Below, piece after piece: positions 7,101 to 35,739 of a stretch of DNA of 35,739 nt. Position 1 is the stretch's first letter. Each line of letters opens with the position of its first letter. A model generated the notes under the pieces. That model was not told the DNA's origin. It saw only the letters and a list, made by a program, of their open reading frames with translations, and ran no database searches. Source of the DNA: a virus; IMG/VR virus record IMGVR_UViG_3300009180_000112, positions 1 through 35,739 of that record; one strand, given 5' to 3'. The position numbers and the translations under genes are program-made.

Positions 7101-10100
7101 GGCTCAATATGATATTTTAAGATTTGATGAGAATAGAGGATATTTCATTCCACAACCTGAAACTTCAATAACTGAAACTGTAGGATTTAGTAATGTAAGT
7201 GATTTAACAATTGTACATAATTTGGATATTCGTTATCCTATGGTACAAATATATGCAACTGGTTCTGAAGACCAGATTATGGCTGGTACTATTAAATCAA
7301 TTGATAAAAACACAATACAAATTAAATTTGCTGGATTAACTTCTGGAAATGTTGTAATTGGTAGTGGTGGTTCATTAATCAATGGAACAATACCTGGTGA
7401 TAGAGTTATTGGTACTGTACTTTCATCATCATATGCAGTTAGAGCTGGTGTGGCGGAAAGTATAGTTGGATTTAATTCAGCATCATTAGCAGCTTTGGGT
7501 GATTTGGAAAACTTTGTAAGAAATTCACAAACATCTTCGATGGCTGTGTTTAGTGCTGTAAGTTCATCATATGCACTTACAGCATCATACGCATTAAATG
7601 CAGGACAAGGTGGTACTGATTTATTTATATACCAAACAAGTTCATTAGTAAAAGCACAAACTGGAAAAATTAACTTTACTGGTAGTGGTGTAAGTGTTAC
7701 TCCATCTGGTTCAGATGGTGTATTGGTAACTATATTAGGTGGAGGTGGTGGTGCTGGTTTTGGTGATTTACTTAGTTCACAAACTTCTTCAATGTTGGTT
7801 GGGACTGCTTCATTAGCATTCACCGCATCATACGCTTTATACGCTTTAAATGCGGAAGGAGTAAATACAGCATCATTCTTACAAGTAAATAAAGATAGTA
7901 ATATTAACGCCAATTTAACAATAAGTGGAAGCTTGGGAGTTAGTGGTAGTGTTGCATTTAGTAGTAGTATTTCACTTTATAGTTTACCTTCTGGTTCAGC
8001 ACAAGAAGTTGTTGTTTGGGACCCTATAACTAAAAAATTAGGATATAGAAACGTAGCAGCTGCAGTAGGTTCATCAGGTACTGGTGGTACTTCTGGGGGT
8101 GATGGTTCATCCGGCTCTTCTGGAAGTAGTGGTACAACAGGTTCAGCTGGTTCATCCGGCTCTTCTGGAAGTAGTGGTTCATCCGGCTCCTCTGGAAGTA
8201 GTGGTAGTAGCGGTACGTCTGGAATAAGTGGAACTAATGGAACGTCTGGGTCTTCTGGAAGTAGTGGAAGTAGTGGAAGTAGTGGTTCATCGGGAACTTC
8301 TGGCACATCTGGAAGTTCTGGGTCATCGGGAAGTTCTGGTTCATCGGGAACTTCTGGTTCAACTGGTTCTAGTGGTAGTAGCGGAAGTAGTGGGTCATCA
8401 GGAACTTCTGGTAGTAGTGGAACTAGTGGAAGTAGTGGTACAACTGGTTCGGATGGCACATCGGGAACTTCTGGAACTAGCGGCACTAGTGGTAGTGGTG
8501 GTTCATCGGGAACTTCTGGTAGTAGCGGTTCATCAGGAACTTCTGGAAGTAGCGGTTCATCTGGAAGTGGAGGTTCAACTGGGTCAGCAGGTACATCAGG
8601 AACTTCTGGTTCATCTGGCACATCAGGAACTTCTGGTTCATCGGGTTCATCTGGGTCATCAGGCACAACTGGTTCGGCTGGTACATCGGGTTCATCAGGA
8701 ACCTCTGGGTCATCTGGAAGTGGAGGTTCATCAGGTACTTCAGGAACTTCTGGTTCAACTGGTACGGCTGGCACATCGGGAACTTCTGGAACTGCTGGCA
8801 CATCAGGTTCATCAGCAACTGCTGGTACAGGTGGTACATCGGGTACGTCTGGCACCTCTGGTACAACTGGAACTGGTGGTACGAGTGGCTCTAGTGGTAT
8901 AGATGGTACTAGTGGCTCTAGTGGCTCGAGTGGTAGTAGTGGAGAGGCTGGTACATCAGGAACTTCTGGAAGTGGTGGTACATCAGGTACTTCTGGCACA
9001 GCTGGTACATCGGGAAGTTCTGGGTCATCTGGAAGTAGTGGTTCAACCGGCTCTGCTGGTACATCAGGTACTTCTGGTATTGATGGAAGTAGTGGTACAT
9101 CAGGAAGTTCTGGGTCATCTGGAAGTAGTGGAACAACAGGTTCATCGGGAAGTTCTGGTAGTAGCGGTACAAGTGGCACATCAGGAACTTCTGGCACATC
9201 GGGAACTTCTGGAAGTAGTGGTTCATCAGGAACAACTGGTTCATCAGGAACTTCTGGAAGTAGCGGTACTGCTGGTAGTAGTGGTGTTGATGGTACATCT
9301 GGCACAAGCGGTACATCAGGAACTTCTGGTACAAGTGGCACAACTGGTTCGGATGGAACTTCGGGAAGTAGTGGTACTGCTGGTTCATCTGGCACAAGCG
9401 GCACCGATGGAACTTCGGGAAGTAGTGGTTCAGCTGGCACAAGTGGTTCAGCTGGCACAAGTGGTTCAGCTGGTACAAGTGGTTCTACTGGAAGTGATGG
9501 AACTAGTGGTAGTAGTGGAACAGCAGGGTCTTCAGGAACTTCTGGTACTGATGGCACTAGTGGTAGTAGTGGAACAAATGGCTCAGCTGGTACAACTGGT
9601 TCATCGGGTACAACTGGTTCATCAGGAACTTCAGGTATAAATGGCACAAGTGGAAGTAGTGGAAGTAGTGGAAGTAGTGGAAGTACAGGTACAGATGGTA
9701 CGTCTGGCACAACAGGTACATCAGGCACAACTGGTTCATATGGTACTTCTGGCACAAGCGGTACAAATGGCACAAGCGGTACAAATGGTAGTAGTGGTTC
9801 TGCTGGAAGTAGTGGTAGTAGTGGAACTGATGGTTCTGCTGGTACAACTGGTTCGTATGGTACGAGTGGTAGTAGTGGTATAGATGGTTCATCTGGCACA
9901 AGCGGTACTAATGGAACTTCAGGAAGTAGTGGCACAGCAGGTACTTCTGGAAGTAGTGGTACAAGTGGTAGTAGCGGTACTTCTGGTTTAGATGGAACAT
10001 ATTTTGGAAGTAGTGGAAGTAGTGGAAGTAGTGGTAGTAGCGGAAGTACTGGAACTGATGGTACTTCAGGTTCTTCTGGTAGTAGTGGATTGAATGGTAC

Positions 10101-11628
10101 ATTCTTTGGTAGTAGTGGTTCATCTGGAACTGATGGCACATCGGGAACTTCTGGTACATCAGGTTCTTCTGGCACAACAGGTACAAGCGGTACTGATGGT
10201 AGTAGCGGTACTTCTGGTTTAGATGGAACATATTTTGGTAGTAGCGGTACATCAGGAACGGATGGCACAGGTGGTACATCTGGATTAGATGGGACGTCTG
10301 GTACTGCTGGGTCTTCTGGAAGTAGTGGTACAAGTGGTTTAGATGGAACATTCTTTGGTTCATCAGGAACTTCTGGTTCAACTGGTTCTGCTGGTTCAAG
10401 CGGACAAAGTGGAACATCTGGAGTAGATGGCACATCAGGAACTTCTGGTTCTTCTGGTTCGTCTGGTTTGGATGGAACTTATTTTGGTAGTGCTGGTACA
10501 TCAGGTTCAACTGGTACAGCAGGCACAAGTGGTAGTAGTGGATTTAATGGTACTAATGGCACAAGTGGTTCATCAGGAACTTCTGGAAGTAGTGGATTGA
10601 ATGGTACATTCTTTGGTACAAATGGTACTAGCGGCACAAGCGGCACAAATGGTACAACAGGTACTGCTGGTTCATCTGGGTCAACTGGTACGGATGGTAC
10701 ATCAGGAACTTCTGGAAGTAGTGGATTGAATGGTACATTCTTTGGTACAAACGGCACATCAGGAACTTCTGGTACAAATGGTACAACAGGTACTGCTGGT
10801 TCGTCTGGGTCAACTGGTACGGATGGTACTAGTGGTACAAGCGGAAATGGTACATCGGGAACTTCTGGGTTAAATGGAACTTATTTTGGTAGTAGTGGTT
10901 CTTCGGGAACTAATGGAGCTCCTGGTACAACTGGTGCAGATGGTTCATCCGGAACTTCTGGAACAAATGCTCCTGGCTATTCATCGGGAACTTCTGGAAC
11001 GGATGGCATTACGGGTTCAAGTGGTACATCGGGTTCATCAACGCCTGGTATAACCTCTGGTACTTCTGGTACACCGGGTATTAGTGGTACATCAGGTACT
11101 TCACCTGCTGGATTCACATCGGGTACATCAGGAGGAGCAGGTACTAATGGTACTTCTGGGTTCGCAACCGTTAGTGGTACAACTAATAATGGTGTATTAA
11201 CTTTAGAAGGCGCATCTCCAAACGTAAGAGCGGAAGATAATATGGTATTTGATGGTACTACATTGACTGTTACTGGTAATGTAGTAGTAACAACTTCGGT
11301 AGCAGCAACAACGTTTAGAGAAACATATAATGATTTAGGAACTGGAGCTAGTGCTACATTTGATTTATCAACGGCAAACAATTTTAGAAGACAATTTAAC
11401 GGAACTGCAACAATAACATTTAGTAATCCACCAGCATCAAACGCATTTGGATTTACGTTAGTAGCTGTTAATGCTGGTTCATACTCTATAACTTGGCCGG
11501 CAGCAGTAGATTGGGCAGGTGGAGTTCCTCCTGTATTAACATCGGTTGGTACGGATGTACTTACATTCTATACATTTAATGCTGGTTCATCATATTACGG
11601 ATTTATAGTAGGTAAAAATTTAAGTTAA
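1150..11628 (+). CDS. Giant collagen-like tail fibre / adhesin (3,492 aa) with two cupredoxin domains
   Basis: A very long virion surface fibre, presumably trimeric, for host attachment. Residues about 100-1,950 hold roughly 22 divergent beta-repeats of the form SGSVTASVxPxxGFxVxS...FTGSxxVSGS, linked by FxGDGxxLxNIP motifs known from phage fibres. Inserted are two cupredoxin-like domains (about 592-694 and 1218-1321) with complete type-1 copper ligand patterns. Residues about 1,960-2,300 are a Ser/Ala-rich connector. Residues 2307-3337 are collagen-like Gly-X-Y made almost only of G, S, T, A, D and N. From about 9991 this is broken regularly by GL(D/N)GT(Y/F)FG. The C-terminus carries the familiar GTTNNGVLTLEG...FDGTTLTVTG module and a head with TITFSNPPASNAFGFTLV and SITWPAAVDW, typical of phage fibre tips. 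No S74 chaperone is present. The start follows GGAAAGTAACGC and two ATATTTATA motifs. The family of parts is clear; the receptor is unknown. Confidence 0.85.
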   Translation: MAISNLLTGRVRVVSPKNVTLDRYQFLDLSQAEPNLGVPNFSASLSGSPAIVVSDDQGNRGFVRSLDLDNVTAKFTGSFTGSYTGSYFGDGRDLFNLPASKFIASGSSTASFINGGFNVNTSASIQGNLSVSNNLYVSKSIYADQLIVNVISSSVIYSSGSNKFGDEYSDRQEFTGSVLVSSSLIVNNATGSSFTGSFTGSFFGDGTNLFNLPKATRLATGSITASVGPEFGFKVESVASGSQFTGSLLVSGSVSASFFVGDGSKLFNIPALTATLIASGSVTASVDPAYGLRVVSPISGSEFTGSVDITGSLTITATSGALKLGSSSAYYGEGTYLRNIPRNALTEDALISTEIKSGSVTASVSPNFGFVVNSKASGSFFYGDVQATSGSVFSGSGAKLFDIPLNSLAQEAFRIVSASVTASVSPNFGFKVESKISGSQFTGSLFVTGNIEIPTGSGYFSGSGAGLSDIPRSALSFEINRIASGSVTASVDPGNGFVVFSPASGSRFTGSIFVTGSGIELSSGSFSGSGARLFDIPKSAISNLDLSKIFSGSYTASISPDYGFTVNTRSTISGSLVVSSSAEPLATSSIPTYYYVTNFGASAYNFDGAASGPNPNLTLVRGVTYQFEVNANGHPFYIKTAATSGVGSQYTTGVVNNGAQSGSVYFTPPSGSPDTLYYVCQFHQSMAATMSIVDTIYLQNRILFEGNTAISGGLYVRDYVRAREFTGSFSGSYIQGDGGGLFNIPRSAFTGDAFRIASGSVTASTTPDYGFRVETDRTASAYGSQFTGSVDISGSLRAFAVSASLISGSFFGDGSGLRNVPAEVSNRISSGSVTASVNPDGVGFKVESSQFGSRFTGSLFISGGGIFLETGSSYSGSGRYLYDIPRSALSFDISLIASGSFTASVSPTYGFKVESAQSGSRLTGSLFVSGGVYLGSGSHFSGSGRYLFDIPRSAISNLDTNAIFSGSVTASVAPNTGFIVTSIVSGSIFSGSINVSGSGKFINGVTASVFSGSGAGLTDIPFSALSQELFRIASGSVTASAIPDYGFRVESQASGSQITGSVRVTGSLFVTATSGALVLGSSSAYYGEGTYLRNIPRNALSEDALISTEIKSGSVTASVSPNFGFVVKSQASGSIFSGSIRVTGSVYVESGSSYYGDGSGLTNITLANLAIDSTKIFSGSATASISPDKGFTVNTYSTISGSFIVSSSAREVLTSSLFPVYNVTADGSSAYIISGSVQGSNPSITLVRGVKHTFNINAIGHPFYIKTVNSTGTGNTYSSGVTNNGAAVGTIIFTPPVDAPNTLYYNCQFHAGMAGTFNLVDSIILPAEIKFIGETKIIGNITASMYSGSGRGLFDIPQSALSSEVFRVASGSVTASVAPNYGFKVESQISGSQLTGSLQVSGSIYMYATSGALMLESSSNFFGEGRYLRNIPRSALTEDALISTEIKSGSVTASVAPDYGFKVITAFTSSLGESGAFTASIASQFTGSISVSGSVYINDNSGGLFIESSSFIYAEGTYLRRIPKSALTEDALLSSFIVSGSVTASVNPNDGFRVITPFTGSQIGSQFTGSVEVSGSIIAKNFFIGDGRYITNVQAAASPLIASGSATASVSSGDTFIVTTLATGSGLDFQIGTRITGSVDVSGSLQSQFFVGDGRYITNVVANAAPFIASGSATASVASGDTFVVKTAATGSQYGSRITGSIDVSGSIKAFSFIGDGSQLTNVQAAASPLIASGSATASVASGEKFLVITSPESGSFKSQFTSSVAISGSLTASLYYGDGGGLFNIPPDAIQNLELPKINSGSGVAIIDPTKLNVNVPITAARYDGDGSGLFNIPPDALQDLKLDRIISGSVQAQISPNKGLQIGTRTFVSGNLSVTGSLFVTGGNIVANSGSVFFGDGSGLTNINIANLSFETFLLKSGSVTASISPDKGFVVNTSASIWGDLYVNNKFRANSITASNYIFSPLISSSFLGTYNFQGNGPTASAQYDILRFDENRGYFIPQPETSITETVGFSNVSDLTIVHNLDIRYPMVQIYATGSEDQIMAGTIKSIDKNTIQIKFAGLTSGNVVIGSGGSLINGTIPGDRVIGTVLSSSYAVRAGVAESIVGFNSASLAALGDLENFVRNSQTSSMAVFSAVSSSYALTASYALNAGQGGTDLFIYQTSSLVKAQTGKINFTGSGVSVTPSGSDGVLVTILGGGGGAGFGDLLSSQTSSMLVGTASLAFTASYALYALNAEGVNTASFLQVNKDSNINANLTISGSLGVSGSVAFSSSISLYSLPSGSAQEVVVWDPITKKLGYRNVAAAVGSSGTGGTSGGDGSSGSSGSSGTTGSAGSSGSSGSSGSSGSSGSSGSSGTSGISGTNGTSGSSGSSGSSGSSGSSGTSGTSGSSGSSGSSGSSGTSGSTGSSGSSGSSGSSGTSGSSGTSGSSGTTGSDGTSGTSGTSGTSGSGGSSGTSGSSGSSGTSGSSGSSGSGGSTGSAGTSGTSGSSGTSGTSGSSGSSGSSGTTGSAGTSGSSGTSGSSGSGGSSGTSGTSGSTGTAGTSGTSGTAGTSGSSATAGTGGTSGTSGTSGTTGTGGTSGSSGIDGTSGSSGSSGSSGEAGTSGTSGSGGTSGTSGTAGTSGSSGSSGSSGSTGSAGTSGTSGIDGSSGTSGSSGSSGSSGTTGSSGSSGSSGTSGTSGTSGTSGTSGSSGSSGTTGSSGTSGSSGTAGSSGVDGTSGTSGTSGTSGTSGTTGSDGTSGSSGTAGSSGTSGTDGTSGSSGSAGTSGSAGTSGSAGTSGSTGSDGTSGSSGTAGSSGTSGTDGTSGSSGTNGSAGTTGSSGTTGSSGTSGINGTSGSSGSSGSSGSTGTDGTSGTTGTSGTTGSYGTSGTSGTNGTSGTNGSSGSAGSSGSSGTDGSAGTTGSYGTSGSSGIDGSSGTSGTNGTSGSSGTAGTSGSSGTSGSSGTSGLDGTYFGSSGSSGSSGSSGSTGTDGTSGSSGSSGLNGTFFGSSGSSGTDGTSGTSGTSGSSGTTGTSGTDGSSGTSGLDGTYFGSSGTSGTDGTGGTSGLDGTSGTAGSSGSSGTSGLDGTFFGSSGTSGSTGSAGSSGQSGTSGVDGTSGTSGSSGSSGLDGTYFGSAGTSGSTGTAGTSGSSGFNGTNGTSGSSGTSGSSGLNGTFFGTNGTSGTSGTNGTTGTAGSSGSTGTDGTSGTSGSSGLNGTFFGTNGTSGTSGTNGTTGTAGSSGSTGTDGTSGTSGNGTSGTSGLNGTYFGSSGSSGTNGAPGTTGADGSSGTSGTNAPGYSSGTSGTDGITGSSGTSGSSTPGITSGTSGTPGISGTSGTSPAGFTSGTSGGAGTNGTSGFATVSGTTNNGVLTLEGASPNVRAEDNMVFDGTTLTVTGNVVVTTSVAATTFRETYNDLGTGASATFDLSTANNFRRQFNGTATITFSNPPASNAFGFTLVAVNAGSYSITWPAAVDWAGGVPPVLTSVGTDVLTFYTFNAGSSYYGFIVGKNLS
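2923..3231 (+). other. Cupredoxin-like (type-1 copper) domain 1 inside the fibre
   Basis: Residues about 592-694 show a beta-sandwich pattern with LVRGVTYQFEVNANGHPFYI and LYYVCQFHQSMAATM. The candidate ligands are H634, C680, H683 and M686. C-x2-H-x2-M is the amicyanin/pseudoazurin-type C-terminal ligand loop, with the first His 46 residues upstream. Whether copper is bound is inference. The domain is bounded on both sides by ordinary fibre repeats. Confidence 0.7.
4801..5112 (+). other. Cupredoxin-like (type-1 copper) domain 2 inside the fibre
   Basis: A paralogue of the first domain at residues about 1218-1321, with LVRGVKHTFNINAIGHPFYI and LYYNCQFHAGMAGTF. Ligands H1261, C1307, H1310 and M1313 are conserved with the same 46-residue His-to-Cys spacing. 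Both domains follow a similar STISGS...VSSSA lead-in, so domain and linker were probably duplicated together. Confidence 0.7.
8068..11160 (+). repeat. Collagen-like Gly-X-Y repeat region (residues 2307-3337)
   Basis: About 1,030 residues of GTSG/GSSG-type triplets. Proline is absent until the last roughly 70 residues (GAPGTTG, NAPGYSS, STPGITS, GTPGISG). Base composition is visibly more GC-rich than the flanks because of Gly and Thr codons. The repeat leaves long open frames in other frames and on the other strand; those are shadows. Eight GL(D/N)GT(Y/F)FG interruptions occur between 9991 and 10890. Confidence 0.9.
10576..10833 (+). repeat. Near-identical 129-bp tandem duplication within the collagen region
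   Basis: Unit A (10576-10704) and unit B (10705-10833) both start GGAACTTCTGGAAGTAGTGG, code GLNGTFFGTNGTSG, and end with the ACTGGTACGGATGG segment. They differ at only a handful of positions. 129 bp equals 43 residues, the dominant spacing of the interruptions. Confidence 0.85.
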
Positions 11629-13672: not shown

Positions 13673-16600
13673 ATGGAATATTTAGGAGGTAACCCTAATG
13701 GTTTAAATCAATTAAGTTCAAGCTTAATTGCGTTGTATGTGAGTGGGAGCAAGATAGCTAACTTCTCATCGGAATCGGTGAATGTGGTTGGTAATTTTAC
13801 TGCCTCTGGTATTCAAACTAATTTAATTGTTAGTCAATCCAATTCTCCAATATCAATAAGAGGTAATGTTCAAATAACTGGTTCGTTAAATATTTCATCA
13901 TCAATAACTGCATCTTTATTTAGAGGAGATGGTAGTGGATTATTTAATATTAGTGCAACAGCAATTGGAGATTTGAACCAATTAAAATCAGGTTCGGCAA
14001 TAGCTAATATATCTCCAAACAAAGGATTAATTGTAAATACTGGAGTAAGTGTTGATAATTTTTTAATTGTAAGTGGTAGTGGTATTTTTAAAGGAGATAT
14101 TAGTGTAGCTGGAAAAATAACATCAACTGAAATATTTGCAACATATATTTCTTCTTCTGTAATATATTCATCGGGCTCAAATAAATTTGGAGATTCTCAA
14201 ACTGATAAGCAAGAATTTACTGGTAGTGTGGCTATGAGTGGTTCTCTTTTTATAGATGGGTTGAAAGCTGATAGTTCAAATGAAGTATTAGTAATAAATG
14301 CTACAACAGGTAAAATAGGAACTAAAACAGCTGCAGCAACTTCTGGAACATCTGGTACATCAGGTACAACTGGGTCTTCAGGAACTTCTGGTAGTGGTGG
14401 TTCATCGGGTACAACTGGTTCGGATGGCACATCTGGCACATCCGGTACATCGGGAACACGAGGCACTTCAGGAAGTGGAGGTACATCAGGAACTTCTGGG
14501 TCATCTGGAAGTGGTGGTACATCAGGAACTTCTGGGTCTACTGGTTCTGCTGGTACATCAGGAACTTCTGGTAGTAGCGGCAGTAGTGGAAGTGGTGGTA
14601 CATCAGGAACAAGAGGCACATCTGGAAGTAGCGGAAGTGGTGGTACATCAGGAACTGATGGTTCATCAGGAAGTGGAGGCACATCGGGAACTTCTGGAAG
14701 TGGTGGTACATCTGGCACAAATGGTACTGCTGGTAGTGGAGGTTCATCGGGAACTTCTGGTTCAACTGGTTCGGCCGGTACAACTGGGTCTTCAGGTACA
14801 ACTGGTTCATCGGGTACAACTGGTTCTAGTGGTACAAGTGGACAGAGTGGAAGTTCTGGGTCATCTGGTTCTAATGGTTCTTCTGGTAGAGATGGTACAT
14901 CTGGTAGCGGAGGTAGTAGTGGTACTGCTGGTAGCGGTGGTATTACTGGAGCAGGTGGTTCTGCTGGTACATCGGGAAGTAGTGGAAGTAGTGGGACTAG
15001 TGGGTCATCGGGTTCAACTGGTTCAGCTGGTACATCGGGAAGTTCTGGTTCAACGGGTTCTAGTGGTATAACTGGAGCAGGTGGAACGGCAGGAACTTCT
15101 GGAAGTGGAGGCACATCAGGAACTTCTGGTTCAACTGGGTCAAGCGGTACGTCTGGTACGGCAGGGACTTCTGGTTCAACTGGGTCAACGGGTTCAGCGG
15201 GTACATCAGGAACTTCTGGTTCAACTGGTTCGGCTGGTACAAGTGGCAGTAGTGGTAGTGGTGGTACAACAGGAACTTCTGGTTCGGCTGGTACGTCTGG
15301 CACAACAGGAACTTCTGGTAGTGGTGGTACTAGTGGACAAAGTGGTGGTATCAAATATAATTTTTCAACAACAATTACTGATTCTGACCCTGGTAATGGA
15401 ATAGTACAATATAATAATGGTACTATTGCTTCGGTAACTTTTTTATACATTGATATATTAGACCAAAGTGGTAATAATCAATTAGCATGGTTTAATAGTT
15501 GGGATGATAGTAACACACCAAATAATAGAGGTAATGTTATTTTATCATCAAGAGATAGTGGAACAATAAATAATATATTCACAATTACTGGAGCAGTAAC
15601 TAACGCATCTGGATATTTTAAAATACCTGTAATATATGTAAGTGGTACACTACCAACTAATACTGCACAATTAGTAATTGATTTTGCAAGAACTGGAGAT
15701 AGTGGTACATCAGGAACTTCTGGTTCTGCTGGCACAACAGGTACTTCTGGTTCAGCTGGCACATCGGGAACTTCTGGTTCAGCTGGCACATCGGGAACTT
15801 CTGGTTCTGCTGGCACGGCTGGAAGTGGTGGTACATCAGGAACTTCTGGTTCGGCTGGCACATCAGGTACAACAGGTACTTCTGGTAGCGGAGGTAGTAG
15901 TGGAACATCTGGTAGCGGAGGTAGTAGTGGTTCTGCTGGTAGTGGGGGTAGTAGTGGTACTGCTGGGAGTAGTGGTTCAGCTGGAACATCTGGTTCAGCA
16001 GGAACTGCTGGAAGTGGAGGCTCATCAGGAACTCGTGGTACATCGGGAAGTGGAGGGTCATCAGGAACTTCTGGTACTTCTGGTTCGGCTGGTAGTGGTG
16101 GTACATCAGGAACTGCTGGTACATCTGGCAGTGGAGGTACATCAGGAACTGCTGGTACATCAGGATTATTATCATTAAGTGGTACAACTGATAATGGTGT
16201 AATTACATTAAATGGAACTGCACCAAATGCAACTGTTGAAAGTAATTTACTATTTGATGGTAGTACGTTGACAGTAAATGGAGCAGCGGTAATTACTGGT
16301 AACTTAGTTGTTAATGGTACAACTACAACTGTAAATTCAAATACAATTAATTTAGGTGATAATATTATTACTTTAAATGGAGATTATACAGGTTCAGTAG
16401 CACCAACTGAAAATGCTGGTATTGAAATTAAAAGAGGTAACGCTGCAACTGTATCATTCTATTGGGATGAAACAAATGATAGATGGACTTTAGATAATAA
16501 TACATATGTAAACGGAAATATTCAGGGAACTGGTAATATTGTTATATCAGGTACAATTGATACGGGTCAAGGAGCTACTGAGGTTTATTTAATGAACCAA

Positions 16601-19600
16601 AATGTAAGAACTACGGATAACGTTACCCATGCAACAATTACAGCAACAAATGGTGTAAGTGTAACTGGTGGAAACCTTTCGGTAAGTGCTGGTAATATAA
16701 CATTAAGTGGTACAATAGATACTGGACAGGGAGCAACTGAAGTTTATTTAATGAACCAAAATGTTCGTACAACCGATGCAGTAACATTCTCTACAGTTGA
16801 TACTGGACAAGGTGCAAATGAATTGTACGCAATGAACCAAAACGTAAGAACTACGGATGCGGTTACATTCTCTACTGTTGATACTGGGCAAGGAGCAAAT
16901 GAATTGTACGCAATGAATCAAAATGTTCGTACAACTGATTCTCCTACCTTTGCTGGATTAAACATAACTGGTACGGTAACATTTAGTACTGCATTTATTC
17001 AGAATAATCTTAAACAATATGTTATAAATGGATTATCCGCATCAGCAACTCAATCTAGAAGATATGAAATAGCTAAAATTGCTATTGATTATAATGATTG
17101 GAATAGTGTTGGTGTATTTGAAGTTGAGCTAATGGAAACTTATTACGCTCAAGGCTTAAAAAAGAAATATAATGTATGGTATGGTTATGTAAGTAACTAT
17201 GGTGTATATTTAGTAGAATATCAAGGAGTTGGGTCTAATAACTTTATGGTTAATTTAAGTTCCGAAACCGCAGGAAGTGGTGACCAAAGATATATTTCAG
17301 TTTACGTTGATGTTGCATATTATTCAACTGTAGATGTTGTAATTCGTACAAATAGAAGTATAACAGCATCAAATCCTCCTGGTATCGGTTCTACTTGGAT
17401 TAATACTTCACCATCTGGAACTAACGTAACATTTACAGCAGATTCAATAGTATATCCAACATCAAATCAAACTGGTATAGCAGTACCAATTATGTATGAT
17501 AGTAATGATATAAGTTACTATGTAAACCCAGCTTCATCAACTAGATTAAATCAATTATCAGTTGGTGGTGGGGCATTTGATGTTAGTGGTATTAATATTA
17601 ACGGAGATGCTGGTATAGTTGGTTCTAATTATTTATATTTTGGACATACAAATGGTTCAATAGGTAGTTGGCAGACTAGAACATATTCTACTGGTGGAAG
17701 ACAAATTTGGAATTCAAACGGATTTGAATTTAATAGAACTGGATATGGTGGTAACATCATATTATATGCCGATTCATCGGAAAGAATTGGAATTAATACA
17801 TCAGATTTTTCATATACTTCATCAGATAACGCTTCTGTAATAAGCACTATTACAAACAATAGATTATTCGTAAATGGTTCAATTCAATTATTAGGAAACC
17901 AAGACGCAATCGTATTTGGTAGAGGAGCTGCATCATTCTTAAGAGATGAAGAATTAGGATTTGGCTGGGGTGGTGGTTGGTACATGATTGATAGTACTTG
18001 GATTCGTTCTAGAGGTTCTAAGAATGTTTATGTTGATGCCTATGTTAGAGCACAAGGTTCATTTAGAGTAGGTTCTGAATATTCAATATGGGCACCTTAT
18101 GGTACTTATAGTTCTTACATAAGTAGAATTGCATATTTCTCATTTGACTGGAATGCTAACTACGATTCATATACAAATCATGGTATAGCATCAACTGATT
18201 TAAATGGTAGTTTTAGTGATTCAATGAGTATTAACTCATTCAATGATATTAACTTAAGAATAGATAGTAATAATAATAACGCAGATTCTTATGTAAGATT
18301 CCATAATAATAGTTCTGTAAGTAATCAATTTGCATATATTGGATTTGATGGTACAAACTATGTAAACTATTTTAGTGGAATTCTTTACGCAACTTCGCAA
18401 GCTAGGTCACCTATATTTTATGATAACGATAATACGGCATTCTATATAGACCCAAATAATACCGATGTATCATTCAGAATGGCAGGTGGCATTATTTCTA
18501 CTTCTTATATGAAGATTGGTATTGAAGATGCTGGTTGGGATTGTTATATGCAAATTACGGATGATAATCCAACGCTTGACGGATTTGGATATGGTGGTGA
18601 ATTTTATTTCTATGGAGATAAATCATCAAGTTCATCTATACTTTATATGGGTGGTATTGCAGCAGCTAACCAAGTACGTTCTGCAAATCAAATGCGTTCA
18701 CCTATTTATTATGATTATAATGATACTGGATATTATGTAGACCCTAATAGTACTACAAATATTCGTTATTTAAAAGTTAATACAACTGGTACTTCATCTG
18801 GAACTAGAGCACTAACTATTAAGCAAGACGGATTTGGTGAATATAACTATGGTTCTTATCCTGGTGCTTGGACATCGGCATTACAAATCCAAAATAATGA
18901 TAATACCAAAATGATTTGGATATCACCATTGGATAGTTCAAACCACGCTAGATTCCATGTAAATGGAGCAACTGCTGGATTGCACTTTAACGTTGGTGGT
19001 GGTATAAATGCAAATGGTACTACATCTTGGGAAATTTATAGTTCTTATGTTTATAGTGGATACCCTGTATATGGTACTATATTCTATGATGCAAATGATA
19101 GTGGATATTATGTAAATCCAAATGGTACATCACGTATAGGTGGTATAGAAATATCGCCAGCTAACGATTCAACTCAAGGTATTTACTTTAGAGGTGTAAC
19201 TGGTGATAACCCTGGTTCATATAATCACACTGCGTTGGTTGAAAGGTTATGGGGAACTGCTGACCAATCTGAATTATTATTATTCAAAGGTAATGATGTT
19301 GATACCGCAACTATACATGATAGAATTAGATTAGGTTCTACTGGTAGAATTGTATTCCAATCTATGGCAGGCACTTATGATTTGAGTTCTTACATATCAG
19401 CAACTGGTACTGGTAACATCGAAGGTAGTGGATATTTCTATGGTAGTGAATTCCATGTACCTGGTTCAATTTATACACCAATAGTTTATGATAGAAATAA
19501 CTCAGCATATTTTGTAGACCCAGATGGACGTTCTCGTTTATCATCAATGGATTATGGTAATAGTTCATATTATTTGGCAGGTGGTGATTGGGGTTATCGT

Positions 19601-21646
19601 CATAATACTCCATATGGTTGGATTCAATTTGGACCTGCAAATACATCACATGCCCACATCTATACTGACCGTTCAAACTTTTATTTTAATGTAAATGAAC
19701 TATATGGTAATGGGTATCATGTAGCAATGCATAATTTGTGGTGGGGAAATATGTACTTAGGAAGTGGTGGTGATTTCTATGCAACCATTTTTTATGATAC
19801 AAATAATTCTGCATATTATTGTGACCCAGCTTCAACAAATAGATTAAACTTTGTAAACGCTAACAACATTTACATCAATGCAGGATATATGTTATATTCT
19901 GATACTGGTGGATGGACTGGTGAATATAATAAGATTCAATGGCATAGTTCTCATATGTACTTCCAAAAGATGAATGAGGGTTATTGGATATTCAGAAGAC
20001 CTAGTGGTAGTGAACCGCATCAATTTGCAGTAGATGGTAATCATTACACTGCTTATTTAGGTTGGTTATCTAACTGGGCTAACCAAAACGTAAGAACCGA
20101 TGCTTCGCCAACTTTCTATGATTTATATGTAAACGGATGGTTTAGAAATAATACTTCTGGACATGGTCTTTATAACCAATCTCGTTCAATGCACTGGTAT
20201 TCTAATAATGGATATTGGAAATCAGCAGGTGGTGGATATGGATATGGTGGTATTGTAATGTACAATAACTACGAATCTGATTTAAGAGGATATGCTGGAT
20301 ATTGGGATGGTAGTGGTTTTGGTATGTTGAACTCTTCTGGTAACTGGCAGATTCGTATTGAGTATGGTAATGCACATATGGAATTGTATCGTGTTACTTA
20401 TATGGATGATGCTAGAGCATACATCTACTATGATAGACAAGATACTGGATACTATATAGACCCTGCCGGTCAACGTTCACAATGGGTAGGTTTAACTGAT
20501 AGAGGTAAAGGTAACACTGGTTTAAGTGGTAAATCAAATTATAGAAGACCTCAAGATTATACTGGTGATAGAAACTATTGGACAGGTTCTGAAGGTTGGG
20601 GTACAACTGACTTTAACTGGATGATGGATTGGGGTTCTGGTTTCAATGATTCTTGGTCTAACCCTGGTAACCAACCTCCTGGTACATCGCATTGGGAAAC
20701 TGTACAAGCTTTCCACTACTCTTGGACTTATGGTGGTGGTTATGGGTGGCAATTGACCGGTGGACCTGTTGATAGAATGTATTTCAGAAATATTTGGTCT
20801 TCTCCTTCTGGTTGGAAAGCAATGGTTGACTCTAATAATAGAGGTGAATATTGTATTCCTACTTATGACTACAACCACTATTCAAGAGTTTACTTTACTT
20901 ACAATAGAGGATATTACGCAACACAAACCGATTCGGCAATGTTGCAACCATATTCAACTGGTAATAATGGTGCGTTCATGTCATTCCACAAAGGTGGTTA
21001 CTATGCATTGAACTTAGGTTTGGATGGTGATAACGTTGTAAGATGGGGTGGCTGGTCTTCTAGATGGCAGAGATACTATTTGAATGATGATACTTTGGGT
21101 ACTCCTTATGTATTACGTTCAAACTTTGATAACTATGGTGGTGGTGGTATTTGGGTATCGGATGATGGTGACCTTTGTGACTTGAATGATGGTTACTTAG
21201 CATTAAGAGCTTCATATGGTTTAAGAATTCATACTGGTAATAGAGGTGGTGGTGCTACGATTGCATTAAGATATGATGGACAGATTATAGCATCAAACAA
21301 CATTATTGCATATGGTTCACCTTCGGATAGAAGATTGAAAGAAAATTTAAAACCTTTAGAAAATTCATTAGAAAAAGTAATGAAAATGAGAGGTGTTGAA
21401 TATGATTGGAGAGAAGGTACTGATGAATACGAAACAACTGGACTTAGACATGATATAGGTTTTATAGCGCAAGAAGTTGAAGATATAGTTCCTGATTTAG
21501 TTAGAGCTGGCGAAGATGGTTATTTAGCAATTAGAGATAGAGGTATTCCAGCATTATTATTAGAGGCTATTAAGGAATTAAAAGTTGAGTTGGATGCATC
21601 TAAAAATGAAATAAAAGATTTGAAGAAAAAATTAGGTTTGGATTAA
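13673..21646 (+). CDS. Second giant tail fibre (2,657 aa) with collagen-like regions and C-terminal S74 intramolecular chaperone
   Basis: Residues 1-220 are beta-repeats with RGDGSGLFNI and an IYSSGSNKFGD module shared with the first fibre. Residues 225-559 are collagen-like GTSG repeats. Residues 560-675 are a globular insert (from IKYNFSTTITDSDPGNG, ending VIDFARTG) of a kind common between phage collagen segments. Residues 675-831 are a second collagen segment. Next come GTTDNGVITLNG and four DTGQGAxExYxMNQNVRTTD units. From about residue 1273 there are seven YDxNxxxYYxDPxxxxR units separated by variable, aromatic-rich domains. A Trp-rich domain at about 2300-2395 (WETVQAFHYSW..GYGWQLTGGP) looks like a binding head. 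The end is a Peptidase_S74 chaperone (SDRRLKENLKPL) and a coiled coil. The S74 domain drives trimerisation and cleaves itself off. The protein probably serves as host-recognition fibre. Confidence 0.88.
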   Translation: MEYLGGNPNGLNQLSSSLIALYVSGSKIANFSSESVNVVGNFTASGIQTNLIVSQSNSPISIRGNVQITGSLNISSSITASLFRGDGSGLFNISATAIGDLNQLKSGSAIANISPNKGLIVNTGVSVDNFLIVSGSGIFKGDISVAGKITSTEIFATYISSSVIYSSGSNKFGDSQTDKQEFTGSVAMSGSLFIDGLKADSSNEVLVINATTGKIGTKTAAATSGTSGTSGTTGSSGTSGSGGSSGTTGSDGTSGTSGTSGTRGTSGSGGTSGTSGSSGSGGTSGTSGSTGSAGTSGTSGSSGSSGSGGTSGTRGTSGSSGSGGTSGTDGSSGSGGTSGTSGSGGTSGTNGTAGSGGSSGTSGSTGSAGTTGSSGTTGSSGTTGSSGTSGQSGSSGSSGSNGSSGRDGTSGSGGSSGTAGSGGITGAGGSAGTSGSSGSSGTSGSSGSTGSAGTSGSSGSTGSSGITGAGGTAGTSGSGGTSGTSGSTGSSGTSGTAGTSGSTGSTGSAGTSGTSGSTGSAGTSGSSGSGGTTGTSGSAGTSGTTGTSGSGGTSGQSGGIKYNFSTTITDSDPGNGIVQYNNGTIASVTFLYIDILDQSGNNQLAWFNSWDDSNTPNNRGNVILSSRDSGTINNIFTITGAVTNASGYFKIPVIYVSGTLPTNTAQLVIDFARTGDSGTSGTSGSAGTTGTSGSAGTSGTSGSAGTSGTSGSAGTAGSGGTSGTSGSAGTSGTTGTSGSGGSSGTSGSGGSSGSAGSGGSSGTAGSSGSAGTSGSAGTAGSGGSSGTRGTSGSGGSSGTSGTSGSAGSGGTSGTAGTSGSGGTSGTAGTSGLLSLSGTTDNGVITLNGTAPNATVESNLLFDGSTLTVNGAAVITGNLVVNGTTTTVNSNTINLGDNIITLNGDYTGSVAPTENAGIEIKRGNAATVSFYWDETNDRWTLDNNTYVNGNIQGTGNIVISGTIDTGQGATEVYLMNQNVRTTDNVTHATITATNGVSVTGGNLSVSAGNITLSGTIDTGQGATEVYLMNQNVRTTDAVTFSTVDTGQGANELYAMNQNVRTTDAVTFSTVDTGQGANELYAMNQNVRTTDSPTFAGLNITGTVTFSTAFIQNNLKQYVINGLSASATQSRRYEIAKIAIDYNDWNSVGVFEVELMETYYAQGLKKKYNVWYGYVSNYGVYLVEYQGVGSNNFMVNLSSETAGSGDQRYISVYVDVAYYSTVDVVIRTNRSITASNPPGIGSTWINTSPSGTNVTFTADSIVYPTSNQTGIAVPIMYDSNDISYYVNPASSTRLNQLSVGGGAFDVSGININGDAGIVGSNYLYFGHTNGSIGSWQTRTYSTGGRQIWNSNGFEFNRTGYGGNIILYADSSERIGINTSDFSYTSSDNASVISTITNNRLFVNGSIQLLGNQDAIVFGRGAASFLRDEELGFGWGGGWYMIDSTWIRSRGSKNVYVDAYVRAQGSFRVGSEYSIWAPYGTYSSYISRIAYFSFDWNANYDSYTNHGIASTDLNGSFSDSMSINSFNDINLRIDSNNNNADSYVRFHNNSSVSNQFAYIGFDGTNYVNYFSGILYATSQARSPIFYDNDNTAFYIDPNNTDVSFRMAGGIISTSYMKIGIEDAGWDCYMQITDDNPTLDGFGYGGEFYFYGDKSSSSSILYMGGIAAANQVRSANQMRSPIYYDYNDTGYYVDPNSTTNIRYLKVNTTGTSSGTRALTIKQDGFGEYNYGSYPGAWTSALQIQNNDNTKMIWISPLDSSNHARFHVNGATAGLHFNVGGGINANGTTSWEIYSSYVYSGYPVYGTIFYDANDSGYYVNPNGTSRIGGIEISPANDSTQGIYFRGVTGDNPGSYNHTALVERLWGTADQSELLLFKGNDVDTATIHDRIRLGSTGRIVFQSMAGTYDLSSYISATGTGNIEGSGYFYGSEFHVPGSIYTPIVYDRNNSAYFVDPDGRSRLSSMDYGNSSYYLAGGDWGYRHNTPYGWIQFGPANTSHAHIYTDRSNFYFNVNELYGNGYHVAMHNLWWGNMYLGSGGDFYATIFYDTNNSAYYCDPASTNRLNFVNANNIYINAGYMLYSDTGGWTGEYNKIQWHSSHMYFQKMNEGYWIFRRPSGSEPHQFAVDGNHYTAYLGWLSNWANQNVRTDASPTFYDLYVNGWFRNNTSGHGLYNQSRSMHWYSNNGYWKSAGGGYGYGGIVMYNNYESDLRGYAGYWDGSGFGMLNSSGNWQIRIEYGNAHMELYRVTYMDDARAYIYYDRQDTGYYIDPAGQRSQWVGLTDRGKGNTGLSGKSNYRRPQDYTGDRNYWTGSEGWGTTDFNWMMDWGSGFNDSWSNPGNQPPGTSHWETVQAFHYSWTYGGGYGWQLTGGPVDRMYFRNIWSSPSGWKAMVDSNNRGEYCIPTYDYNHYSRVYFTYNRGYYATQTDSAMLQPYSTGNNGAFMSFHKGGYYALNLGLDGDNVVRWGGWSSRWQRYYLNDDTLGTPYVLRSNFDNYGGGGIWVSDDGDLCDLNDGYLALRASYGLRIHTGNRGGGATIALRYDGQIIASNNIIAYGSPSDRRLKENLKPLENSLEKVMKMRGVEYDWREGTDEYETTGLRHDIGFIAQEVEDIVPDLVRAGEDGYLAIRDRGIPALLLEAIKELKVELDASKNEIKDLKKKLGLD
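14345..15349 (+). repeat. Collagen-like repeat A of the second fibre (residues 225-559)
   Basis: Gly-X-Y triplets of G, S, T, A, with occasional Arg (GTRGTSG, GRDG), Asn, Asp, Ile and Gln. Compared with the first fibre it is richer in GSGG and carries charged Arg. There are no prolines and no GL(D/N)GT(Y/F)FG interruptions. Confidence 0.88.
15695..16165 (+). repeat. Collagen-like repeat B of the second fibre (residues 675-831)
   Basis: Continuation of Gly-X-Y triplets after a globular insert of about 115 residues, with frequent GSAGTSG units. It ends at the GLLSLSGTTDNG module. Confidence 0.88.
16718..16960 (+). repeat. Three tandem 81-bp repeats coding DTGQGAxExYxMNQNVRTTD
   Basis: Unit starts at 16718, 16799 and 16880 (GATACTGG...) are exactly 81 bp apart. 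A fourth, more distant copy starts at 16559. Each codes a 27-residue unit ending NQNVRTTDxxTFxxx, a motif common in T4-like phage fibres. Confidence 0.85.
21323..21643 (+). other. Peptidase_S74 intramolecular chaperone domain (residues 2551-2657)
   Basis: GSPSDRRLKENLKPL marks the domain start. By family knowledge the Ser of S-D-x-R-L-K (S2551) with the Lys (K2556) performs auto-cleavage just before the Ser once the fibre trimer has folded. DIGFIAQEVEDIVPDLV and the helical tail EAIKELKVELDASKNEIKDL are typical. The predicted released fragment is about 107 residues. Confidence 0.88.
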
Positions 21647-22972: not shown

Positions 22973-25291
22973 ATGGCAGAAAGAATCGTATCACCGGGTG
23001 TTTTTACAAGAGAAAATGATTTATCATTCCTAGCACAAGGAATTGGTGAAATTGGAGCAGCGTTTATCGGACCTTTTAAACAAGGACCTGTATTTGTTCC
23101 AACTGTTGTAAGAACTCAATCAGAATTCGAAAGTATTTTCGGAACACCTGATGGAACTTATTATACTGAATATGCAGTACAAAACTATTTAAGAGAAGCT
23201 GGAGTAGCAACAATCGTTAGGGTTGGTGGAGTTGGTGGATACCAAGAAGCAGCACCTATCGGTATTTTTGCATCTGGTGGACTTTCTAGTGAAAAATTAA
23301 TTGGTGTATTACACTCAACTAAAACCGGAAATCAAAATGTAACTAAAGCTGTACAATTGATATCTGACCCAAGAGCAGGATACTCTGGTTCATTCTTAAT
23401 GTCTGGTTCTGATTTTGGTTGGATATCAGCATCAATTTTACCAAAAGATTCAAATGATTTATCAGATGTATTTGGTACTTCTCCATTCGGTTCTAAGAAA
23501 GCATATACATATACATATTTTGAAAATTTAGCATCTGCATCTTATTCAAATGCAAATGGTGGTACAATTGTAACATCAGCAGTACTTCCACAACAAGATT
23601 TCGCATTTAATGCACAAGCTGCTGAAACTCCAATGGTACAATCACAATTAATTAGTGGTGATAGATATAACTTATTTAAGTTTGTAACTTTAGGACATGG
23701 TACATTATATAATACTAAATTTAAAATTGGCGTTTCTAATGTAAAAGCTGCTGGTGAAGATGGTGGTACTGATTATTCTACATTTACTGTAACAATCCGT
23801 TCATTCGGTGATACTGATAAGAGAAAGAGTGTTGTTGAAACATTTAATAATGTAAACTTAGACCCTGCTTCTCCAAACTATATCGCTAGAAGAATTGGTG
23901 ATAGATATTTCACAATTGGTTTAGATGGCAAAATTACTGAATATGGTGATTACACAAATAAATCAGCATATGTAAGAGTGGTAGTTTCTGATGCAGGTTC
24001 ATTCCCAATTTCAGCGGCACCATTTGGACATGGAGCATATACTAACCCAATTAAAGCATCTAATAACACACAAGCATTAAAGGTACAGGCAGTAACATAT
24101 CAAACTAATTCTACTGGTAACTCATCATCATCTCCAATTTATTATTCTGGATTTGATTTTGAAACAAACGGAATTAAATTAGATAACTCAAATTACTTAA
24201 AACCAATACCAACAAACGCTGAAACTGGTTCTAACGTATCATTCGCATTTGATGCAAATGGTTTACAATATCAAATGACTGGTTCAGTTTCATCTGATAT
24301 GGTTAAGAGACAATTTGTATTAGCATTCCAAATGGGATTTGATGGTACTAATCCTGTAACACCAATATTAAAAGCTGGTGAAAACGGATGGGGTGCTGGT
24401 AATACACAAGGATTCAATTGTTCTACATCAACATCATCTGGTTCAGTTGCATATACAAAAGCAATTGCAGCAATTTCAAACCCTGATGAGTATGATATCA
24501 ATATGGTAGTAACTCCTGGTATTGTAAGAAGATTACACCCAGCTATCACTACTAGAGTAATTGATATGGTTGAAGAAAGACAAGATGCATTCTACATCGC
24601 TGATTTCAACGATTCGGCTGATACAATCACTCAAGCAACTGAAGAAGCTAACTCTGTGGATTCTAACTACGTTGGTACTTACTATCCTTGGGTTAAAACA
24701 ATTGATACAAATACTAACAAACTTACAACTGTTCCACCATCTACATTACTTCCAGCGGTTTACGCTAGTAACGATAGATTGGCAGCTGAATGGTTCGCAC
24801 CTGCTGGTTTAAATAGAGGTGGTATCGTAGGAGCAGTTAGTGTATTGAATAGATTAACACATTCTGAAAGAGATACTTTATACGAAAACAAAGTAAACCC
24901 AATCGCAGCATTCCCTGGACAAGGTATTGTAGCATTCGGACAAAAGACGTTGCAAGATAAGGCTTCAGCATTAGATAGAATCAACGTAAGAAGATTACTT
25001 ATCACTGTTAAGAAGTACATCGCTTCAACATCTCGTTACTTAGTATTCGAACAAAATACTTCTGAGACTAGAGGAAGATTCTTAAATACGGTTAATCCTT
25101 ATTTGGAAGCAATCCAACAAAGACAAGGTTTATACGCATTCAAAGTGGTGATGGATGAAACCAACAACACACCGGATGTAATAGATAGAAATATTATGGC
25201 AGGACAAATTTTCTTACAACCGGCTAAGACGGCTGAATTCATAGTAATTGACTTCAACATCTTACCAACTGGAGCAAGTTTCTCAGCATAG
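22973..25291 (+). CDS. gp18: Contractile tail sheath protein (T4 gp18 family), 772 aa
   Basis: Forms the contractile outer tube that drives the tail tube through the cell envelope. The N-terminus, MAERIVSPGVFTRENDLSFL followed by GAAFIGPFKQGPVFVPTVV, is the classic sheath opening. The C-terminal domain (about 520-772) carries NRLTHSERDTLYENKVNPIA, FGQKTLQDKASALDRINVRR, RYLVFEQNTSETRGRFLN and DRNIMAGQIFLQPAKTAEFI, the conserved polymerising part. At 772 residues it exceeds T4 gp18 (659); the central region (about 110-500) is probably surface-exposed decoration domains. It has its own motif upstream and is followed by the tube gene, the usual order. Codon choice shifts toward C-ending codons (TTC, AAC, TAC, ATC) in its second half, consistent with high expression. 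The ATG at 22973 gives the conserved N-terminus. Confidence 0.95.
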   Translation: MAERIVSPGVFTRENDLSFLAQGIGEIGAAFIGPFKQGPVFVPTVVRTQSEFESIFGTPDGTYYTEYAVQNYLREAGVATIVRVGGVGGYQEAAPIGIFASGGLSSEKLIGVLHSTKTGNQNVTKAVQLISDPRAGYSGSFLMSGSDFGWISASILPKDSNDLSDVFGTSPFGSKKAYTYTYFENLASASYSNANGGTIVTSAVLPQQDFAFNAQAAETPMVQSQLISGDRYNLFKFVTLGHGTLYNTKFKIGVSNVKAAGEDGGTDYSTFTVTIRSFGDTDKRKSVVETFNNVNLDPASPNYIARRIGDRYFTIGLDGKITEYGDYTNKSAYVRVVVSDAGSFPISAAPFGHGAYTNPIKASNNTQALKVQAVTYQTNSTGNSSSSPIYYSGFDFETNGIKLDNSNYLKPIPTNAETGSNVSFAFDANGLQYQMTGSVSSDMVKRQFVLAFQMGFDGTNPVTPILKAGENGWGAGNTQGFNCSTSTSSGSVAYTKAIAAISNPDEYDINMVVTPGIVRRLHPAITTRVIDMVEERQDAFYIADFNDSADTITQATEEANSVDSNYVGTYYPWVKTIDTNTNKLTTVPPSTLLPAVYASNDRLAAEWFAPAGLNRGGIVGAVSVLNRLTHSERDTLYENKVNPIAAFPGQGIVAFGQKTLQDKASALDRINVRRLLITVKKYIASTSRYLVFEQNTSETRGRFLNTVNPYLEAIQQRQGLYAFKVVMDETNNTPDVIDRNIMAGQIFLQPAKTAEFIVIDFNILPTGASFSA

Positions 25292-35140: not shown

Positions 35141-35506
35141 ATGGCAATAAGCAAGATAGAATATAATGATTTAATAAGGAGTGTGGGTAAAATAGTATTA
35201 CAACCACAAACTATTAGAGCACATATACCAGAACCAACATATACGGATTTTAGAAAAGGGTATATTGTTAGATATTTTATACAAAGAATAAATGATGATT
35301 CTGCACTTATATATGAAGTTAATGAAACGGATTATTTAAAATTTTCATTAGACCCATTTTATACTGCAGTTAATATAGATTGGAGATTAACAGGCAGTTA
35401 TCAAATTATTGAAGAGTCTAATTCCAAATCCGTAAAATTTGGTTCTAAGAAAATGAAAAGTTTAATTTTTTATTTACCAAATTATTTACAACTTACTGGT
35501 TATTAA
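35141..35506 (+). CDS. Conserved phage structural protein (121 aa)
   Basis: The sequence IRAHIPEPTYTDFRKGYIVR, YFIQRINDDSALIYEVNETD and YLKFSLDPFYTAVNIDWRLT resembles a small protein that commonly follows baseplate genes in T4-like phages of aquatic bacteria (family recollection; no named T4 counterpart). Its pattern of strands and conserved aromatics suggests a virion component. It starts 1 bp after the hub stop, so it is coupled. The predicted tmRNA promoter overlaps its stop codon. Confidence 0.55.
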   Translation: MAISKIEYNDLIRSVGKIVLQPQTIRAHIPEPTYTDFRKGYIVRYFIQRINDDSALIYEVNETDYLKFSLDPFYTAVNIDWRLTGSYQIIEESNSKSVKFGSKKMKSLIFYLPNYLQLTGY

Positions 35507-35538
35507 TTTGGTAGTTTCAAATTAATTTCGTATATTTA
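35507..35538 (+). promoter_or_regulatory. Putative tmRNA promoter (Bacteroidetes-type TTTG / TAnnTTT)
   Basis: TTTG at 35507-35510 and TATATTTA at 35531-35538 are separated by 20 nt, fitting the Bacteroidetes housekeeping consensus TTTG-N19/20-TAnnTTTG except for the final base. The same -7 box overlaps ATATTTACA (35532-35540), one base from the phage late motif, so either host or phage control is possible. The mature RNA start lies 14 nt downstream, leaving a short leader for RNase P removal. Confidence 0.55.
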
Positions 35539-35551
35539 CATAAACAAACTT

Positions 35552-35739
35552 GGGGGTGCCTTGGAATTGATTGCAATGAGAAGTATAGTACCACACGTAG
35601 ACAGAAGTGCTAGATGTCTTTAAATCTGCGCAAACAAACAACTGACGAAATGTCAACTATGACCTTTGATTCTATGATGGAATTCATTGGGGCTTCTGAG
35701 TACGCATACGCTGCTTAGTTCATTCCGCATCACTCGTGG
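35552..35739 (+). ncRNA. ssrA: tmRNA (transfer-messenger RNA), 3' end beyond the window
   Basis: tmRNA rescues ribosomes stalled on broken mRNA and adds a degradation tag. The 5' end GGGGGUG is the 7-nt acceptor strand. UUGGAAUUGAU matches the conserved UGGAuUyGAC of the tRNA-like domain. Pseudoknot PK1 is clear: stem 1 AGACA/UGUCU (35599-35603 with 35615-35619) and stem 2 GUGC(U)AGA/UCUGCGC (35607-35614 with 35625-35631). Exactly 12 nt later is the resume codon GAC (35644). The tag frame has 24 codons, begins DEMST, ends ASEYAYAA and stops at TAG 35716-35718. The -YAYAA end resembles the usual YALAA degron, and ACUGACGAA parallels the ...UGGCGAA resume context of Bacteroidetes. Later pseudoknots and the 3' acceptor strand lie beyond the edge. 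Confidence 0.85.

Follow-up and report, generated by a model that had tools for sequence, protein, structure and literature searches.

Phages that encode tmRNA, the RNA that rescues stalled ribosomes and marks their incomplete products for degradation, are no rarity. The gene is present in 402 of 18,146 phage genomes, about 2.3% (PMC9004378), a frequency at odds with an initial annotation of the locus studied here, which described phage tmRNAs as only occasionally reported. Listed examples include the mycobacteriophages Bxz1, Catera and Wildcat, among others, and Bacillus phage G (PMC4131195); the Wildcat tmRNA is highly expressed (PMC7474061). The ssrA gene of Melnitz and the pelagimyophages has been read as help in host takeover (PMC9004378), and Chryseobacterium phage MA9V-3, considered at the end of this article, has an annotated ClpX as well as a tmRNA (PMC13120357). 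The most frequent tmRNA tag length is 10 codons (PMC11915505).

Phage tmRNA genes are thus already known, and the notable feature of the locus described here is a long, conserved tag. The locus lies at the end of a virus contig from IMG/VR, 35,739 bases long, which was analysed at full length and is called the window below. In a limited search of the literature outside subscription papers, we found no description of this tag family or of phage tag length in general.

A tmRNA gene cut by the contig end

A one-piece tmRNA (ssrA) gene of about 383 nt begins at 35552 (+ strand) in the window, which holds its 5′ half, the 188 nt up to the contig end at 35739. This end falls inside PK2 and cuts off the 3′ half. 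An nhmmer profile of 34 complete relatives, with the window itself left out, matches 35552–35739 at model positions 1–188 with E = 4.4e-52, and the nearest relative (L083, full length) is 95.2% identical to the window over all 188 nt. The fragment by itself is far less telling. ARAGORN gives no match, and neither does Rfam at the gathering threshold, so these two proposed checks returned nothing when applied to the window; a permissive Rfam search yields 12.8 bits. The energy from single-sequence folding is unremarkable relative to shuffles (z = −0.40), and blastn against annotated phages finds only a weak, chance-level match. ARAGORN, Rfam and folding are negative or uninformative on the fragment, and the tmRNA would therefore be unproven from the window alone.

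The evidence comes instead from relatives. With the protein of 121 aa encoded just upstream as query, six related viral contigs were found (L001–L006). Two of these, L001 and L005, extend far enough and both contain a complete tmRNA; the other four stop at most about 265 bases past the 121-aa gene, inside the tmRNA, like the window. The 32-mer at PK1 (35597–35628) has exact copies in 86 viral loci and none in bacterial or archaeal genome contigs. From the 32-mer loci and a 3′-half pattern, 34 distinct complete copies were drawn and aligned. ARAGORN calls a tmRNA in complete relatives, and all eight that were compared with Rfam RF00023 pass, at 69–85 bits against a cut-off of 47. The covariance-model match and the 3′ acceptor strand with its T-arm, both proposed as checks in the initial annotation, are thus found in complete relatives, and together with the profile match they bear out its claim of a phage-borne tmRNA gene.

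The consensus structure pairs 95.4% of alignment cells, versus 38–50% with the partners slid, a comparison favoured by the structure having been written from L083, which is itself in the alignment. Changes on both sides are seen in 26 of the 78 pairs of the 34-copy alignment. By sequence comparison, then, the tmRNA gene at the end of the window is genuine, although the contig reaches no further than its first half, and this very phage would carry the complete gene, as the 3′ halves of its relatives suggest. A practical trap follows: tmRNA genes of this kind are overlooked at contig ends.

Anatomy of the tmRNA

The 5′ acceptor strand expected from the initial annotation is GGGGGTG (35552–35558, +), for which the partner in relatives reads CA(C/U)CUCC. 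G3 of this strand would pair with U70; the G3–U70 pair, an AlaRS identity pair, is invariant in the relatives (34/34). Acceptor pair 5–68 is A-U in 18 copies and G-C in 13. This strand is the only portion of the tRNA-like domain within the window, and the rest is read from relatives. Complete relatives have a T-arm with GGTTCRA (the T-arm expected in the window's own missing half is GGGTTCGA), and their T-stem is 100% paired, with one pair seen as U-A, G-C, C-G and A-U. In some relatives CAA, CTA or CAT replaces CCA after the acceptor stem; these encode no CCA, and CCA addition is therefore needed there.

The conserved motif reported earlier, TTGGAATTGA, is present where it had been placed. 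The 5′ strands of helix P2 lie at 35571–35576 and 35585–35598 (+), with their 3′ strands beyond the window end; P2 is paired in 99.7–100% of alignment cells, and column pair 24–420 exchanges A-U, G-C, C-G and G-U among copies. PK1, also foreseen, occupies 35599–35628 (+), with S1 at 35599–35603/35615–35619 and S2 at 35611–35614/35625–35628. S1 and S2 are paired in 95.9% and 91.2% of cells, respectively. PK1 is identical in most copies; L093–L096 differ, with S1 kept through compensatory changes.

The resume signal, CAACU (35639–35643, +), places an A at −4, equivalent to A86 of Escherichia coli tmRNA, the base four before the resume codon that is essential there (PMC2481249). This A is found in 23 of 23 distinct upstream contexts of the tag family. 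Most copies have UAACU where the window has CAACU, and the U85C substitution is tolerated in E. coli tmRNA (PMC2481249). The resume codon, GAC, starts 15 nt after PK1 and not 12 nt as had been stated. The tag frame that it opens runs for 24 codons and a TAG stop (35644–35718, +), ending YAYAA, a small hydrophobic tail, as the claimed AYAA-stop end implies. PK2 begins at 35723 (+) and is cut at 35739; in an alignment to L083, the 5′ strand of S1 is at 35723–35728, that of S2 at 35730–35734, and the 3′ strand of S1 from 35736 onwards.

Besides PK3, the relatives have a further hairpin region. Two of the four divergent copies, L094 and L096, are strongly different around PK3/PK4. PK2 and PK3 (alignment columns 183–315) exist in a few quite different versions that are combined with varied tags and ends, as if the tmRNA gene of this family recombined in modules. 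One relative (L032) has an enlarged PK region and measures 428 nt in all.

A long tag conserved as protein

The tag of the window reads DEMSTMTFDSMMEFIGASEYAYAA before its stop codon, in the same frame that ARAGORN gives for close complete relatives. It belongs to a single family with the core STxTFxDxMxFxGADYAxAA, represented by 125 viral loci, 38 distinct core DNAs and 24 peptides. Among 27 core DNAs of equal length, differences at codon positions 1/2/3 number 1021/704/2372, and among the 11 others 180/243/467. Because differences pile up at third codon positions, the amino-acid sequence of the tag, and not the RNA alone, is under selection. Core length varies by whole codons only. The C-terminal ends (AVAA, AYAA, AIAA and ALAA) have the look of a ClpXP-type degron.

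Tags of the phage family are 23–26 codons long, compared with 8–10 in Bacteroidia, the likely hosts, or about two and a half times the host length. One-piece tmRNAs scored over the cut-off in 138 of 149 Bacteroidia genomes, and 79 of the 83 ARAGORN tag calls there are 8–10 aa, typically GENNYALAA. The four calls above 10 aa were rechecked and three resolve to the nine-residue GEYNYAMAA, which brings the count to 82 of 83. A strict pattern of the phage tag core occurs in none of 395 Bacteroidia genomes, and a tblastn search of annotated phages with the tag peptide returned nothing. The question can be put sharply: a virus keeps a 24-residue tag under amino-acid selection, while its likely hosts manage with nine. 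Since phage and host tags contrast in this way within a single host group, reporter fusions could directly test whether the tag redirects proteolysis or serves a second function.

Two other readings of the tag region were rejected. For many copies (L013, L022, L045, L083 and others), ARAGORN gives a wrong tag of the type VNKxExYLSAP. The version VNKPEHYLSAP is located in PK2, a long way from the resume signal with its A(−4), and its frame is also ruled out by the conservation, with codon bias, of the proper one. This error will pass into annotation pipelines. The tag is also not part of a longer protein, as in two divergent copies the frame is closed by a stop shortly before the resume codon.

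Long tags recur in viruses outside this family. In our viral survey, which used two 3′-end patterns, the second biased towards the STxTFxDxMxFxGADYAxAA family, 13 of the 42 one-piece tmRNAs found with the general pattern have tags of at least 20 aa, a count that may take in some contigs with host DNA at their flanks and that rests on ARAGORN frames checked in part. Viral one-piece tmRNAs often carry unrelated tags of 20–32 aa (L169–L352), for example ADEEYRDLLAEAEQIFNNADAYVPEEALLAA and ANAQIEANMNKVFSLLREEVAVAA, in which a hydrophobic end may follow an acidic or amphipathic stretch. A 1.3-Mb MAG labelled as an uncultured bacterium (G017; loci L109 and L116) includes a phage-like contig with a tmRNA that has a 17-aa tag; it also holds many tRNA-like matches and is perhaps a bin containing phage.

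Genomic setting and probable transcription unit

The window runs from collagen-repeat, fibre-like genes through tail sheath, tube and baseplate genes to the 121-aa gene and the tmRNA, so the sheath, tube and baseplate genes of the proposed phage tail operon do precede the tmRNA. The sheath gene (22973–25291, +; PF04984/PF17482, phrog_23) has its best annotated matches in Microcystis phage Mel-JY01 (48%) and Flavobacterium phage immuto (41%). Two giant ORFs with collagen repeats, of 3492 and 2657 aa, lie at 1150–11628 and 13673–21646; the second ends in an endosialidase chaperone domain (PF13884), and both are probable tail fibres. The 121-aa gene (35141–35506, +) closes the baseplate block; its orthologue precedes the tmRNA in L001–L006, and its product has no Pfam or PHROGs match. 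Where the window ends, L018 and a 134-kb contig (G001) go on: in both, the baseplate block and the tmRNA are followed by a DNA polymerase gene (phrog_17) and then by a DNA/RNA non-specific endonuclease gene. Genes of matching size occur in the same order in L013 and L164. The endonuclease (PF01223) is found two genes downstream of the tmRNA at L018:7530–8144 and L161:16168–16839.

Bacteroidota promoters have the −33/−7 consensus TTTG/TAnnTTTG. Between the 121-aa gene and the tmRNA, the window has TTTGG (35507–35511), 19 nt and TATATTTA (35531–35538), together spanning 35507–35538 (+), an element that we take to be promoter-like for its resemblance to this consensus. Every related locus listed has TTTGG, 19 nt and TATATTT(G/A) ahead of its tmRNA, and the window's own copy has a final A instead of G. 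In most loci, the tmRNA is followed by an inverted repeat and then T residues, presumably a terminator-like element given its resemblance to intrinsic terminators. Given these conserved flanks, the tmRNA gene probably forms a separate transcription unit and is not the last gene of the tail operon.

Host and partner proteins

Promoter style, resume context and the relatives of the tail sheath point to a host that is probably a member of the Bacteroidota. The resume context ATAACTG(A/G)C is common to the phage family and Bacteroidia, and sheath relatives are found in Flavobacterium phage immuto and in MAGs of Flavobacteriales and Sphingobacteriales; MAGs from other phyla match the sheath as well, and its best annotated match is the Microcystis phage.

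The initial annotation spoke of the phage's own ribosome rescue system. The RNA part of that claim stands, but as a whole the claim overreaches. A search of 22 distinct related contigs, possibly incomplete, three of which measure 174–181 kb, turned up no SmpB gene, and 14 tmRNA-bearing contigs that were searched for the ClpP family yielded no such gene. The only ClpP-family gene was in Mel-JY01, a phage without a complete tmRNA. The tmRNA therefore most likely works with SmpB, AlaRS and proteases that are presumably supplied by the host. Candidates for a phage ClpX were rejected, by reading the sequences rather than by a family scan: these AAA proteins stand beside a von Willebrand-like gene and resemble a MoxR–VWA pair. 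Adjacent von Willebrand-type and MoxR-like AAA ATPase genes occur in tmRNA-bearing phages at L167:45–2313 and L166:35–2316.

Model for tmRNA function during infection

The comparisons establish the identity and structure of the gene, its AlaRS identity pair and resume signal, the conservation of the tag and how the transcription unit is laid out. The gene very probably encodes a functional one-piece tmRNA that performs ordinary trans-translation with host factors during infection. In our model, a promoter of its own, lying between the tail and the replication genes, would drive transcription of the tmRNA, which host AlaRS would charge with alanine and host SmpB would bind. It would enter ribosomes stalled on broken messages in the infected cell, supplementing or displacing the host tmRNA there. 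The ribosome would switch to the tag frame at the GAC codon, the stalled product would gain Ala and the phage-specific 24-residue tag, the ribosome would be released at UAG, and the tagged product would pass to tail-specific proteolysis by the host. The benefit to the phage may be ribosome recycling, and recycling of ribosomes from broken messages would fit known biochemistry. The nearby endonuclease is suggestive, no more, as a source of such messages. The tag is strongly unlike those of Bacteroidia, and it may, as the initial annotation proposed, redirect proteolysis. Its 15 or so additional residues may serve a second function.

The reading that most deserves to be weighed against this model concerns the fate of the tagged product. 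Degradation might not be the main role; the tag could be a localisation, inhibitory or adaptor-binding peptide or the target of a different protease. Its 23–26 aa compared with 8–10 aa in 82 of the 83 tags called in Bacteroidia, a core conserved well past the C-terminal degron and the lack of the strict pattern in 395 Bacteroidia genomes all speak for such a role, but the last residues still resemble a ClpXP-type degron, the frequency of unrelated long viral tags may mean relaxed length rather than special function, and no protease or adaptor dedicated to the tag came to light. We regard this reading as possible but doubtful. A broader reading, which we offer tentatively and think unlikely, is that many phages have a distinct tmRNA class with long, protein-constrained tags that do what host tags do not, for example by recruiting another protease or adaptor or by altering what happens to host as opposed to phage polypeptides. 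If so, the STxTFxDxMxFxGADYAxAA family with its 125 viral loci would be one such class, for which no host-chromosome counterpart was found.

The remaining alternatives deny the RNA a role in tagging. That phage RNAs can act as inhibitors has precedent in phage DS6A, where an RNA consisting only of a tRNA-like domain inhibits the endogenous tmRNA (PMC4131195; PMC11915505), and the RNA described here might likewise titrate host SmpB or AlaRS and so block host trans-translation. Purifying selection on the tag frame, the conserved A at −4 and the conserved stop argue that the mRNA part is used, however, and make a dominant inhibitor very unlikely. If the locus were no working gene but the remnant of a temperate phage's attachment site, derived from a tmRNA, it would leave traces of the kind seen in several phages, where matches cover only the last 30–40 bases of the tmRNA 3′ end and some adjoin an integrase (Gordonia phage ODay). 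In the window, by contrast, it is the 5′ half that is present, no integrase appears among the genes scanned by family, and the flanks are structural and polymerase genes kept in the same order in several contigs; the relatives are complete and covary throughout, with a conserved tag frame. We give the remnant reading hardly any credence. As for a chance or degenerate resemblance at the contig end, the negative results of all three single-fragment methods would be expected from it, but the 34 relatives behind the profile are complete and covary, and the match to that profile at E = 4.4e-52 reduces the probability of such a resemblance to a negligible level. The functional tmRNA thus remains the preferred reading.

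Comparison with known tmRNAs

The mycobacteriophages and Bacillus phage G infect hosts of a different phylum and are likened to this family by their listing as tmRNA carriers, not by sequence. The ssrA of Melnitz and the pelagimyophages differs in being two-piece, riboswitch-controlled and of alphaproteobacterial type. Flavobacterium phage immuto resembles the window in tail gene order; neither its genome nor that of Mel-JY01 has a complete tmRNA.

Phages of Bacteroidota offer a further comparison. The crAss-like phage cr114_1 (L153) and Chryseobacterium phage MA9V-3 (L154) are alike in having a tmRNA in a (probable) Bacteroidota phage, but theirs take the permuted two-piece form, with tags of 13 and 17 aa by ARAGORN, and no relatedness to the window family is seen beyond the conserved tmRNA ends. 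These tmRNAs are permuted, though the sampled Bacteroidia hosts have one-piece tmRNAs. Cellulophaga phages phi38:1 and Calle_1 (Callevirus), which are phages of Bacteroidota, share with the window family a one-piece tmRNA and a long tag, of 22 aa (AQIEANMEAVNAILNLEVAVGV), whereas the tag sequence is unrelated and the phages belong to a different group (Pervagoviridae). The phi38:1 tmRNA (L152:1200–1559) has no feature line in NC_021796, and that of Calle_1 is annotated with shifted coordinates.

Compared with the tmRNAs of Bacteroidia chromosomes, which mostly score 112–167 bits on RF00023, the phage relatives score lower, at 69–85 bits. They nevertheless share with the one-piece form of RF00023 the acceptor with its G3–U70 pair, the T-arm, P2, PK1, the tag, PK2 and PK3.
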